This document shows, in pieces, positions 3,865-7,982 of a DNA stretch of 64,000 nucleotides. The translations under genes were made by a program, and so were the position numbers. Below the pieces are notes generated by a model. The model ran no database searches. It saw only the letters and a program-made list of their open reading frames with translations, and was not told the origin of the DNA. The stretch's first letter is position 1, and the number at the start of each line of letters is the position of its first letter. Source of the stretch: Candidatus Margulisiibacteriota bacterium (GTDB taxonomy: Bacteria; Margulisbacteria; WOR-1; JAHJIW01); NCBI GenBank assembly GCA_018823125.1, contig JAHJIW010000011.1, positions 1 through 64,000 on the forward strand, given 5' to 3'.

Positions 3865-4482
3865 TTAAATCGACACGTTGGGATAAATTAATTCTTCACG
3901 CAGTACAACGCTAAACACATCTTTCGCAAGCTCATCGCGGGCCATTCCTACGCAGCCATCAAATTTATTGCTATGTGAATAACCAGTTTCTCCAAATAAA
4001 TGAACCGTAGATATCGAAAGCTCCTCTAAAACATACCGTAAGTAGGTCCAAGTATTACGGGGCTCAACTTCATTTCCCCAAAGCGGGCGCGGTTGTCCTT
4101 TTGCGGTAACAACGCTGATCAACGTACGATCCGCAAGCCCCTTATCCGCTAACCACCTCTGGGTAAGTTCAAATTGCCCATCTTCTATAAAAAGCAATAG
4201 AGGTAAACTAGCCTGCTCTAAAAATCCTGGCAAACCATCACAATATCTTTGATAGTGATTTGAATCAGTATGGCGCATAAGTGGGCTACGCTGCCATTCT
4301 TTTCGCACTTTACCTTCAGTATCATAAACATGAAGACGAGAAAAGCCTGGATGCATCCACATGGCAACTCTGCCACCGTGTCGGTAAATTTCCTGCTTCA
4401 CTTTACGATGTAAAGCTCGATTAAACCTACTGCGATCAGGCCTCAATTCGTTAATCGATATTAATCTAAGTACAGCGGACAT
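3865..4482 (-). CDS. Orphan protein, unknown function (205 aa)
   Basis: I do not recognise this family. The protein is soluble, begins with a basic N-terminus (MSAVLRLISINELRPDRSR), and has alternating hydrophobic and polar strands (LPLLLFIEDGQF, STVHLFGETGYSHSNKFDG) that suggest an alpha/beta fold, perhaps Rossmann-like. No signal peptide or membrane segment is visible. aaggag lies close before the ATG. Its promoter region carries the shared CTGCAATTT-N14-CGATAAA element (4501-4530). It is transcribed divergently from the 136-codon orphan gene and lies just upstream of the methyltransferase. Confidence 0.75.
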   Translation of the reverse strand: MSAVLRLISINELRPDRSRFNRALHRKVKQEIYRHGGRVAMWMHPGFSRLHVYDTEGKVRKEWQRSPLMRHTDSNHYQRYCDGLPGFLEQASLPLLLFIEDGQFELTQRWLADKGLADRTLISVVTAKGQPRPLWGNEVEPRNTWTYLRYVLEELSISTVHLFGETGYSHSNKFDGCVGMARDELAKDVFSVVLREELIYPNVSI

Positions 4483-4991: not shown

Positions 4992-6179
4992 CTACCCCGC
5001 ATCCCTTACCCATAAAAAAGTTGTCGAGCAGCGTGCTCCACCATTGCCTCCCATAATACCGTGTTTTTCTTCGGTAAGATGAACATTCCACCCGTCACGA
5101 ACAAAGGCAGCCGCAACACTGGTTGAAGCGCGATCAAATAATAGTCCGCCTAAAGGAAGATCAGATGGATTAGCTAAAAATGAACTTACATCCGGCCAAA
5201 GGGTAACCGTATCAAATTTTAATCTATCTAAGATCGCATCAATACGATCAGAATTTGCTCTATAATAAGCTTCGTTAAACGCAATTCGACTGCCACCCTT
5301 ATCCAATACCGCTTCTAAATCAACGTGATCGGTATATGAGAAAATCCTTCTTTTTAAACCAATTAATTTCATAAGTTCCGGAGGACAAATATCTTGAATC
5401 TGCATCGGCAAATGAAATATTCTTCCAGTTCTGATTCCCGCATCAAAAAAATCGCGATTAATACTACCTTGAAAGTCATGTTTCATGGTCGGGCGGCCAT
5501 CTGATAAGCCGCAACTAGACATTAAGGCAAAATCTTCCCCAAATAAATATCCTCCCCCGGTTCCCAAATAACTGATCCGCACTTCACCATCCAAATTTAA
5601 TGCCTGGGGATATACCCAATCAATCCGTCCGGCATTGCCAGTAACAAATATTTTATCTCCGATATGCACCGCCATATCTCTCAACCAGGAAAGGCTATCA
5701 ATTTCCCGAGGATTTTTTATTTCTACGGGAATCAATCTATCAACTCCAAACCCCCGCAGTTCAGCCAGTAAACTTTCATCAACAAGCGGCAGGCCTATCC
5801 CCATACTATCCACGTAAACAAACCAGGTTTCATACCCTAATCTTTTCAAAGCTTTTGCTAACCCAATCCTTGACCCATACATTTGACGATCTAAAACTCG
5901 AGGAAGGGTATGCACTTTTTCCCATAATTTCAGATCTGTAATAATAAAACCGCGTTCCGTTTCGGTTACTCCTTTTCCGTTAAATTCTCCTCGGGTAATT
6001 TTATGAGCAAGTTTAACTTGCTTAGCAAAGTAGGGCTGTACTAACTGATGACTAGTTGAAGCAAAAACTCTCCCCCGCTCAATATTTCCAAGTGCAAAAA
6101 GAGCAGGCGAAGTTAACATAACCGGCTTTCTTTTTGGCCTGCATCTAATCATACTTCTATTTACTGATGATACGCTCAT
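4992..6179 (-). CDS. Divergent pentein-fold (guanidino-group-modifying) protein
   Basis: This 395-residue protein has the outline of the arginine deiminase/amidinotransferase (pentein) superfamily. The HxD motif is at residues 285-287 (TDHVDLEA) and a C-terminal GGARC motif supplies a candidate nucleophile Cys384. The strand that normally carries EGGD reads TGGG at 207-210, so the usual acidic residue is missing. Activity may be altered, or another acid (FGED, 213-216) may replace it. The first 80 residues are basic and unlike known deiminases. It has its own shared-type promoter element and sits in the orphan gene cluster. Function and substrate are unknown. A bona fide pentein (EGGD intact) occurs at 24623. 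Confidence 0.65.
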   Translation of the reverse strand: MSVSSVNRSMIRCRPKRKPVMLTSPALFALGNIERGRVFASTSHQLVQPYFAKQVKLAHKITRGEFNGKGVTETERGFIITDLKLWEKVHTLPRVLDRQMYGSRIGLAKALKRLGYETWFVYVDSMGIGLPLVDESLLAELRGFGVDRLIPVEIKNPREIDSLSWLRDMAVHIGDKIFVTGNAGRIDWVYPQALNLDGEVRISYLGTGGGYLFGEDFALMSSCGLSDGRPTMKHDFQGSINRDFFDAGIRTGRIFHLPMQIQDICPPELMKLIGLKRRIFSYTDHVDLEAVLDKGGSRIAFNEAYYRANSDRIDAILDRLKFDTVTLWPDVSSFLANPSDLPLGGLLFDRASTSVAAAFVRDGWNVHLTEEKHGIMGGNGGARCSTTFLWVRDAG

Positions 6180-6200
6180 AATTTTTCACCCATACGATTT

Positions 6201-6230
6201 TTTATCGTTAAATCACCAAAAAAATTGCAG
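6201..6230 (-). promoter_or_regulatory. Shared CTGCAATTT-N14-CGATAAA element upstream of pentein-like gene
   Basis: Minus-strand CTGCAATTT (6230-6222), 14 bases (6221-6208), CGATAAA (6207-6201), 21 bases before the ATG at 6179. Both half-sites are identical to those of the 205-aa gene although the 14 spacer bases largely differ, which argues for selection on the half-sites. Confidence 0.65.
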
Positions 6231-6248
6231 AGAAATGACATATTTTTA

Positions 6249-6277
6249 TTGCACACCCTTCCCCGCTCTTCTATAAT
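6249..6277 (+). promoter_or_regulatory. Sigma-70-type promoter of the PorV/TraF-like gene
   Basis: TTGCAC (6249-6254), 17-base spacer, TATAAT (6272-6277). A 29-base gap with aaggagg (6295-6301) leads to the ATG at 6307. This gene uses an ordinary leader. Confidence 0.75.
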
Positions 6278-6306
6278 TGCCACTAGATTAATGTAAGGAG
6301 GCCCTT

Positions 6307-7587
6307 ATGAAAAAATATTTAGTCATTATTTCGGTCATAATTTTAATTTGTTTTGCTTCAACTGCCGTTTTTGCAAATTTTGGCGCCCGACCCATGGCAT
6401 TAGGTGGGGCTTTCACCGCTATTGCAGATGATGCTAACGCTGCCTACTGGAACCCGGCCGGTTTTGCCATTAATCCCGGCATCGAACTATTAGGTACCGC
6501 ACTAGTCGATCATCGCAACGAAACGATTGGCGATAATTACGTTGCTCTGAAAATGTGCTATGAAACACCCATGGATTCTCCTTTTGGATGGATTATTGGC
6601 GTTGGCGCACTTTCTGTCGTTGGGCTATATGCCGCACAATATCTTTCTGACCAGGGAGTTTTAAAGAAAAACTGGGGAAGAACCGGCGAAAAAACCGCTA
6701 AGGGCGAATCGATGGCCGAAGAAGTCAAAGCCGAAGATACCGGCGAAACCAAAGGTAGAAAAGAAATCATTGGAGAAGGAATCTCACGCATTTTTGGTGG
6801 CGGATCTCAACCCGCTCCTGCACCTGCTCCCCAACCTCAACCCGATGAAACCAAAACAGTGGTAGTAGAAAAACATGTATATCATCACGGGCCAACTTAT
6901 TATGGTCCGGTTCCGGTACAAAATCCAGGTTACAACCCGGATATGAATCGTCCTACTTACTATGAAGATCGAGAATATGCAGCGGTAGCTAAACTTACCC
7001 CAACCCAAAAGGCTCAATTTGCATTAGGTTTGACCTGGATGCGTGATAACAATTTCACCCCAGCTATCAATCAAAATACAAACTGGTATACCCTATCCAT
7101 CGCCACCGCCTGGGAAGAAACGGTTTCATTAGGAACAAACCTAAATTTTTATAACATAGAATTAGCCGACGGAACGGCCAGCGGCGTGGGTGGCGGTCTT
7201 GATTTTGGAATTCTAGTTCGCTCTTATGAAAGATTATTTTTAGGATTATATGCCCAAGAAATTTTAACCACGGATATTCAATGGACTAATGGCGCAGTCA
7301 CCCGCTACGAGATGTTAATCAATGGTGGGATTGCAGTTAAACCGATTAAAGAAATAACCTTATCCGCTGACATGCATAATTTGCTTTCACAAAACAATAA
7401 AAACTCAACCATGCACTTTGGTTTAGAACTTATTCCAATTCCAGGATTAGCGCTGCGGGGCGGATTAAATGATGGAAATAAAACGGCCGGGATTGGAATT
7501 GCAATCGGCGAATTAATGATTGATTATGCCATTTTAGGTGGCGTTTTCAACCGCACACAAATTGCCAGCTTAGCCTGGAAGTTTTAA
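6307..7587 (+). CDS. PorV/TraF-like outer-membrane protein
   Basis: A 426-residue secreted protein. Residues 1-23 form a signal peptide, then comes the typical start of FadL/PorV/TraF-like barrels (GARPMALGGAFTAIADDANA...WNPAG). The barrel is interrupted at about residues 125-230 by a charged and then Pro/Gln/His-rich low-complexity insert (APAPAPQPQP, VYHHGPTYYGP), probably an exposed or periplasmic loop. The C-terminal half returns to amphipathic strands and ends in an aromatic-Lys-Phe terminus (LAWKF), as barrel proteins do. Strong aaggagg ribosome site. Such proteins are often annotated as conjugal transfer protein TraF, but no conjugation genes are near. Specific role unknown. Confidence 0.75.
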   Translation: MKKYLVIISVIILICFASTAVFANFGARPMALGGAFTAIADDANAAYWNPAGFAINPGIELLGTALVDHRNETIGDNYVALKMCYETPMDSPFGWIIGVGALSVVGLYAAQYLSDQGVLKKNWGRTGEKTAKGESMAEEVKAEDTGETKGRKEIIGEGISRIFGGGSQPAPAPAPQPQPDETKTVVVEKHVYHHGPTYYGPVPVQNPGYNPDMNRPTYYEDREYAAVAKLTPTQKAQFALGLTWMRDNNFTPAINQNTNWYTLSIATAWEETVSLGTNLNFYNIELADGTASGVGGGLDFGILVRSYERLFLGLYAQEILTTDIQWTNGAVTRYEMLINGGIAVKPIKEITLSADMHNLLSQNNKNSTMHFGLELIPIPGLALRGGLNDGNKTAGIGIAIGELMIDYAILGGVFNRTQIASLAWKF

Positions 7588-7636
7588 AATCGATAGCTTT
7601 CTGATATAATTACCAAATCTTCAGTCGTATCGGCAT

Positions 7637-7982
7637 TCCCCGGTAGCGCAGTGGTAGCGCAGTTGACTGTAAGAAAGGAGGCATGAACAAGCAGTTCATG
7701 CCGGATTAGCAGCTTTCTCGGGAAACCGGGATTGAAAAATTGGGTGAATTCAGGGAAGCCCCGATATAATCGGGGTAATCCTGAGCGAAGCCTGTCGAAA
7801 GGAATCAAAGTAGACAGGAACGTGCAGAGACTAGAGAGTGAGGATCCTAACCAATAATCTCTCAATAAGCGCCCAATACCCTAACGTAAAGCCGAGGGTA
7901 ATGAGATAGTCCAGTCCTAGAAGTAATTTTAGGGTATCCTGTAATCAATTGGTCGCTGGTTCGAATCCAGCCCGGGGAGCCA
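7637..7982 (+). tRNA. tRNA-Asn(GUU), split by a group I intron
   Basis: The acceptor stem TCCCCGG (7637-7643) pairs with CCGGGGA (7972-7978), followed by G and an encoded CCA. The D stem GCGC/GCGC is at 7646-7660 and the T arm GCTGG-TTCGAAT-CCAGC ends at 7971. The anticodon stem is GTTGA/TCAAT. Exons 7637-7670 and 7942-7982 join to a 75-nt tRNA whose seven-base loop reads CTGTTAA, anticodon GTT. The flanks share ctgtaa, so splice sites elsewhere can be imagined. Only this choice gives a seven-base loop, a 5' exon ending in U and an intron ending in G. It also matches the usual gactGTTaatc context of bacterial tRNA-Asn. Confidence 0.92.
7671..7941 (+). mobile_element. Group I intron in tRNA-Asn anticodon (no ORF)
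   Basis: A 271-base intron lies between anticodon bases 35 and 36. A P4-like aattcaggga is at about 7748-7757 and a P7/R-like gtgcagagactaga at 7822-7835. An S-element-like gagatagtcc follows at about 7903-7912. The stem-loop CCCCGAT-ATA-ATCGGGG (7759-7775) may be P6. A guide gcagtt (7691-7696) can pair with exon gactgt using a U-G pair at the splice site, though it overlaps a perfect hairpin ggcatgaac/gttcatgcc (7680-7702) that would compete. It encodes no endonuclease. Confidence 0.85.

Follow-up and report, generated by a model that had tools for sequence, protein, structure and literature searches.

The interrupted tRNA-Asn gene

The stretch of DNA analysed here, referred to as the window, comprises 64,000 nucleotides (nt) of a Candidatus Margulisiibacteriota genome (assembly GCA_018823125.1, contig JAHJIW010000011.1, positions 1 to 64,000). 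At positions 7637-7982 of its plus strand lies a gene for tRNA-Asn(GUU) that is interrupted after position 35 by an intron of 271 nt. When introns were allowed, ARAGORN called tRNA-Asn(gtt) at these same coordinates with an intron of 271 nt; without introns, as is its default, it called zero tRNAs in the whole window. The gene lacks position 17, so that its base 34 carries the standard number 35 and the split falls inside the anticodon. The parts of the gene, all on the plus strand, are as follows.

7605-7610, plus strand: TATAAT, a candidate promoter -10 element 26 bases upstream of the gene, a consensus match only
7637-7670, plus strand: tRNA-Asn 5' exon, ending in ...GTTGACTGT, with anticodon bases G34 and U35
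7671-7941, plus strand: group I intron (RF00028) of 271 nt with borders as placed by ARAGORN, no convincing open reading frame, last base omega-G 7941
7942-7982, plus strand: tRNA-Asn 3' exon, starting with U36 and finishing with an encoded CCA

A preliminary description of this DNA had placed a 271-base insert after position 35 of a tRNA-Asn, had remarked on a CTGTAA shared by both borders, and had chosen the junction by the U/G rule of group I introns. The ARAGORN intron call and the spliced cloverleaf agree with the host and the split, and CTGTAA is present at 7667-7672 and 7939-7944. Joining 7670 to 7942 gives a tRNA of 75 nt with an encoded CCA, which has all cloverleaf stems intact and is typed by ARAGORN as Asn(gtt); moving the junction one base earlier gives a tRNA that ARAGORN cannot assign. 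The junction is also borne out by three genomes of the window's class (G003, G008 and G012), in which the tRNA-Asn gene is uninterrupted and the same 5' half runs directly into TAATCAATTGG, so that the site reads CTGT/TAA.

The group I core

The check by covariance model that the preliminary description had proposed for the intron recovers a group I core. Rfam RF00028 matches at 7697-7933 with 104.2 bits (E 5.8e-26), against a gathering score of 50. The borders are those of a group I intron, with U7670 at the 5' splice site pairing with G7709 of the guide and omega-G at G7941, and the core helices P3, P7, P4-P6 and P8 are present. Conservation of pairing was tabulated for 10 introns, namely the window intron and nine relatives that share an insertion between P7 and P3', out of 26 aligned (see below). 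The helices, on the plus strand, are listed with the number of these introns in which their pairs are standard.

7716-7731: P2 hairpin with a GAAA loop; 6/6 pairs standard in 10/10, every pair changed on both sides
7740-7746: P3 5' strand, partner 7870-7876; 7/7 pairs standard in 10/10, double changes in three pairs
7749-7785: P4 (7749-7754 with 7780-7785); five pairs 10/10 with double changes, outermost pair 7/10
within 7749-7785: P5 (7759-7765 with 7769-7775); outer pairs 6-10 of 10, inner pairs weak, 1 to 6 of 10
7791-7818: P6a (7791-7796 with 7813-7818); five of six pairs 10/10, the rest 9/10, double changes
7829-7833: P7 5' strand GACTA, guanosine site, partner 7907-7911; 5/5 pairs 10/10, invariant
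7834-7863: P7.1-like insertion between P7 and P3' (7834-7838 with 7859-7863); 6-8 of 10, weak
7870-7876: P3 3' strand, partner 7740-7746
7877-7900: P8 (7877-7882 with 7895-7900); five pairs 10/10, four with double changes, inner pair 6/10
7907-7911: P7 3' strand TAGTC, partner 7829-7833
7916-7933: P9 (7916-7919 with 7930-7933); three pairs 8/10, inner pair 5/10, gaps

RNAalifold was applied to the 5' part of 17 introns, where 11/22 pairs show double changes; its pairs 1-3 fall outside what a group I core predicts. No plus-strand open reading frame of at least 80 amino acids lies within 7671-7941, so an endonuclease gene, the mark of a homing intron, is absent from the window intron.

Guide sequence and P1

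Three elements of the intron, also on the plus strand, bear on how the 5' splice site is held.

7680-7702: 9-bp hairpin (7680-7688 with 7694-7702) in the P1 loop, -13.3 kcal/mol
7706-7708: UUA, a P10 candidate that can pair with 3' exon UAA 7942-7944, proposed from sequence only and unconserved in aligned relatives
7709-7713: internal guide GCAGC, pairing with exon CUGU with a U-G wobble at the 5' splice site; adjoins P2

The preliminary description had the guide overlap a competing 9-bp hairpin; on that reading GCAGTT (7691-7696) would be the guide and the hairpin perhaps a switch. The hairpin is real and stable, and between GCAGTT and GACUGU six positions could pair. The guide does not lie inside the hairpin. 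GCAGC stands immediately 5' of P2 in 26/26 introns, which were selected by their tRNA halves, and it does so regardless of what the P1 loop contains; these loops vary from 6 to 81 nt and their content is unconserved. (The 17 sequences of the model R1 were extracted with a regular expression containing GCAG, and their GCAG is there by construction.) In the window, GCAGTT is part of the hairpin (its loop and 3' arm), inside a P1 loop of 38 nt, so that the hairpin covers GCAGTT and not GCAGC. A guide at 7691 was rejected on these grounds and has next to no chance of being correct; the hairpin looks like filler, which hides a decoy guide without overlapping the real one.

Predicted splicing and its probable necessity

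The window is best read as holding a group I ribozyme in what appears to be the cell's only tRNA-Asn gene, a member of a widespread family at this tRNA-Asn site, and we put the probability of this reading at about 93%. The pre-tRNA would fold the group I ribozyme and hold the exon end CUGU on GCAGC as P1. A guanosine bound in P7 would cut after U35, and the freed U35 would then attack after omega-G 7941, joining the exons into a normal tRNA-Asn with anticodon GUU. The anatomy, the covarying core and the uninterrupted site in relatives are shown, and no second gene was found; the catalysis, the need for it and the mobility of the family are inferred.

Another tRNA-Asn gene in the source genome would relieve the cell of this splicing step, and the preliminary description had proposed a search for one. 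In the 1.73-Mb genome, RF00005 gave 43 matches, all of which (43/43) were typed by ARAGORN; they cover all amino acids except Asn, and a second tRNA-Asn was not found in this assembly, which is 94.21% complete in 19 contigs. Since no other tRNA-Asn was found in a genome that is 94% complete, splicing is probably essential, and self-splicing is probably needed to read all AAU and AAC codons. A pattern for intact tRNA-Asn was also run over the phylum. It matched 46/74 genomes, and these were 0/5 of the genomes with an Asn intron vs 46/69 of the others (Fisher p 0.006); one additional site, in G008, was spurious, and several of the other 23 genomes that lack a match are incomplete. The patterns and model used detected no tRNA-Asn, whether intact or split by an intron, in G010, G013 and G007, three genomes of the window's class that are 95-99% complete.

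Several observations weigh against the ribozyme reading. The exon A that precedes CUGU opposes a C, and P1 in the window therefore has four pairs only, one of them a wobble. The outermost P4 pair and the inner P5 and P9 pairs are poorly conserved among relatives. The missing part of the 94.21% complete, 19-contig assembly could hold a second tRNA-Asn, in which case the split gene might be a relic while an intact tRNA-Asn in the unassembled part does the work. Such a relic would hardly be expected to keep all its cloverleaf stems and its ribozyme core, as the window gene does, and the lack of an intact copy in any of the five intron-bearing genomes of the phylum also speaks against it; we regard it as highly improbable.

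Distribution of the tRNA-Asn intron

Contigs were scanned for the 5' half of tRNA-Asn followed by a base other than T, which gave at least 120 stretches. The same insertion was recognised in at least 32 further loci, 23 by a strict test of the 3' exon and 9 of 21 that were retried by a relaxed test. All of these have a matching 3' exon and a G/TA border; L208, which passed only doubtfully, was dropped. Those of the other stretches that could be assigned were mostly tRNA-His or archaeal tRNA genes with other introns. According to their record titles, the loci belong to Nitrospira and other Nitrospirota, Omnitrophota, WWE3, several Patescibacteria, Clostridia, Betaproteobacteria/Burkholderiales, Bacteroidetes, Ignavibacteriae, a cyanobacterium and one bin labelled Pacearchaeota, with misbinning possible for single names. 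The 26-row alignment used above consists of 22 of these loci (those with short introns), the window and three rearranged sequences.

The preliminary description had called tRNA-Asn an unusual host. As a statement about nature this was rejected, given at least 32 further loci from widely separated groups with the same insertion. Bacterial tRNA group I hosts named in the consulted parts of three papers are fMet, Ile2, Leu, Ile, Arg, Gly and Lys (PMC8450103, PMC5733544, PMC4033280). In the consulted parts of the literature outside subscription papers and preprints, a published report of a group I intron in tRNA-Asn was not found. The window intron is thus a new member of a widespread tRNA-Asn intron class of which no report was found. 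Because default ARAGORN misses such split genes, a genome can seem to be without tRNA-Asn, and this concerns the at least 32 further loci as well. With the site inside the anticodon, one wrongly placed border alters the amino acid or breaks the loop.

Some introns at the tRNA-Asn site carry an HNH endonuclease gene and are probably mobile. The intron of G037 has an HNH gene in its P1 loop, and Nitrospira (L155) contains a related fragment. ARAGORN in intron mode labels the G037 gene as tRNA-Thr with different borders; it was read as Asn on the evidence of G047, a genome from that genus in which the gene is intact and the same halves are joined as CTGT/TAA.

Permuted tRNA-Asn genes in relatives

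A circularly permuted tRNA-Asn gene occurs in three genomes of the window's class (G018, G019 and G027), which represent three genera and two families. The genomes were located by RF00028 and the 5'-half pattern, and the order was confirmed by BLAST with an intact tRNA-Asn as query.

G018: query 35-72 at 3921-3958, query 1-37 at 3964-4000
G019: query 35-72 at 5843-5880, query 1-34 at 5886-5919
G027: query 35-72 at 6824-6861, query 1-34 at 6867-6900

In 3/3 the order is intron 3' part, tRNA 3' half, a linker of 5 nt (ATCGA, ATCAT and TTTAT, respectively), tRNA 5' half and intron 5' part. The part upstream of the tRNA 3' half comprises P8'-P7'-P9, and the part downstream of the 5' half comprises P1, P2, P3, P4-P6, the P7 5' strand, P3' and the P8 5' strand. 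Each part has one strand of P7, and the two are predicted to pair into one ribozyme. The units are 284-304 nt long. Their outermost 12 bases (P8) pair 12/12 in 3/3, and differences between the genomes at these ends keep the pairing, one of them being changed on both sides (G-C to A-U). Compared with 100 dinucleotide shuffles each, the units fold more stably (z -5.7, -4.9 and -6.1). The predicted spliced products are tRNA-Asn(gtt) in 3/3, with all tRNA stems paired.

The intact tRNA-Asn pattern was absent from all three genomes. In G018, ARAGORN was run on 30/32 RF00005 loci; the remaining two are a tRNA-Leu seen in L086 and one match below the cut-off. CCA is encoded neither beside the three permuted genes nor with the intact ones of G006, G009 and G017, and 3' end formation and CCA addition would therefore be needed. 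Matches to TIGR02651 (RNase Z) occur in 7/7 genomes, all under the cut-off. Just upstream of the permuted gene of G018, on the opposite strand, a metallo-beta-lactamase-like protein is encoded (G018:C43:2995-3342) that has a weak RNase Z match of 32.6 bits.

A search pattern that recovers 3/3 known cases revealed no further permuted genes in 12 genomes with Asn-intron or candidate loci, nor in 379 genomes of one more phylum, that of a Portnoybacteria genome. Twenty-four stretches from viral contigs were rejected: 0/24 have a 7/7 self-complementary acceptor stem, and their appearance is that of adjacent tRNA genes, in many cases for tRNA-His.

HNH genes lie directly upstream of the permuted gene in G018 and G027, and a 22-residue remnant of one in G019. 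The HNH of G018 matches the L033 locus at 54% identity; a partial, hand-made translation of the L033 HNH had no Pfam match. Among phage records, one phage (two records) matched over 81 nt at 77.8%, and plasmid records gave no match to the window intron or the G018 unit.

Proposed working and origin of the permuted genes

Permuted intron-exon (PIE) genes are likely to exist in nature. As we read it, the sole tRNA-Asn gene found in three genomes of the window's class is permuted within a relative of the group I intron, self-splicing would release a circular pre-tRNA-Asn of 77 nt, the enzymes that process tRNA ends would subsequently open this circle at the 5-nt linker, and the cells would depend on the gene. 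The proposed steps are modelled on the published description of PIE constructs, in the part consulted (PMC4344496). The P8 arms would bring the intron parts together, guanosine would cut after CUGU, and the U would attack after omega-G, closing tRNA and linker as the 77-nt circle, which end-processing enzymes would then open at the linker.

In the tree, the three permuted sequences group as one clade (100/99), which a 98/95 split separates from the half that contains the window intron. A single permutation is therefore the simplest account, and an origin from a window-like intron is not required; direct descent from such an intron was rejected as unsupported by this split. A GIY-YIG gene lies after the permuted gene in 3/3 (in G027 the contig stops within it). 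Eight intact tRNA-Asn loci were examined, and two of them, in G014 and G020, are likewise followed by such a gene, which suggests that the permuted gene stands at the ancestral locus. G019 has a promoter-like stretch just upstream that, compared by eye, resembles that of the intact G009 gene. The permutation probably arose by tandem duplication and partial deletion. In G027, what is left of a second tRNA 3' end lies just past P8 (7063-7092, query 43-72, 83%, E 0.014), which would be explained if the unit had been duplicated in tandem and its outer parts then lost. In Nitrospira sp. CG24E (L155, reverse strand ~5023-6956), a truncated tRNA-Asn 5' half and an HNH fragment lie ~1.6 kb before a complete split tRNA-Asn; partial tandem copies of such genes therefore do occur.

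The same decayed copy in Nitrospira lends some weight to the view that the permuted genes are pseudogenes, and the state of the three genomes, fragmented drafts that are 80-90% complete, would leave room for errors of assembly. Neither account sits well with a common order and a 5-nt linker of differing sequence in three genera and two families, with tRNA stems that pair and give a spliced tRNA-Asn in every case, with P8 ends whose changes preserve 12/12 pairing, or with an intact tRNA-Asn pattern in 0/3; we consider errors or pseudogenes unlikely. Separate RNAs can come together into a group I intron, as in the split introns of organelles, and two transcripts might accordingly splice in trans into a tRNA with no circle. 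This is less likely still, since the halves share one orientation with only 5 nt between them and belong to one unit of 284-304 nt whose ends pair. Splicing of a single permuted transcript into a circle is the reading that we prefer.

Other group I introns and rRNA genes

The window starts inside a 23S rRNA gene (1-1572), which is followed by a 5S gene (2666-2783); a 16S gene is on another contig. Near the 3' end of that 16S gene lies a second group I intron of the source genome (L002, G000:C12:56712-56978; RF00028, 50 bits). Group I matches at 16S genes were also seen in G019 (L043) and perhaps G023 (L250), and at 23S rRNA genes of G022, G007 and G082 (L034, L040 and L038, respectively). In another genome of the window's class (L035, G011:C1:725008-725201, minus strand), a group I intron of ~218 nt interrupts a tRNA-Met(cat) gene, by sequence an initiator; its 5' part scores 55.6 bits with the model R1.

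Comparison with known systems

The window intron shares with the bacterial anticodon-loop introns of tRNA-Leu (UAA), fMet, Ile2 and Arg (CCU) a group I core in the anticodon loop, a U before the 5' splice site and an omega-G at its end. It differs from them in its host, tRNA-Asn(GUU), and in its site between positions 35 and 36, inside the anticodon.

In engineered PIE, a 3' intron half, an exon and a 5' intron half follow one another and the exon is circularised (PMC4344496, in its description of Puttaraju and Been 1992). The permuted relatives have the same order of parts; the engineered versions are laboratory constructs, whereas L240, L241 and L242 have their units in the genome, and the window intron itself is in normal order. 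Genes for tmRNA are likewise bacterial tRNA-like genes that may be broken by a group I intron or permuted, and these are given as separate forms in the part of PMC11915505 consulted, whereas in the G018, G019 and G027 relatives the permutation falls within the intron. The permuted tRNA genes of algae and Thermofilum also have the 3' half upstream of the 5' half and pass through a circular intermediate, as described in the consulted part of PMC4033280. They use a bulge-helix-bulge motif and the tRNA-splicing endonuclease, whereas in the relatives group I parts flank the tRNA. Table 1 of that paper (2014) has no permuted tRNA for Bacteria, and the section consulted of PMC7758197 (2020) counts permuted tRNA genes in six algae and one archaeon. 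A natural permuted group I intron or a permuted bacterial tRNA gene was not recognised in the literature searched.

If functional, the units of these relatives would count both as natural PIE genes and as permuted tRNA genes of bacteria, and it is they that are new here. The PIE layout, known to us only from the laboratory making of circular RNA, would then also have evolved in bacteria, where an essential gene would have this layout and the pairing arms would be part of the unit. Since a single class contains tRNA-Asn genes in normal split, intact and permuted form, the origin of permuted tRNA genes becomes testable.
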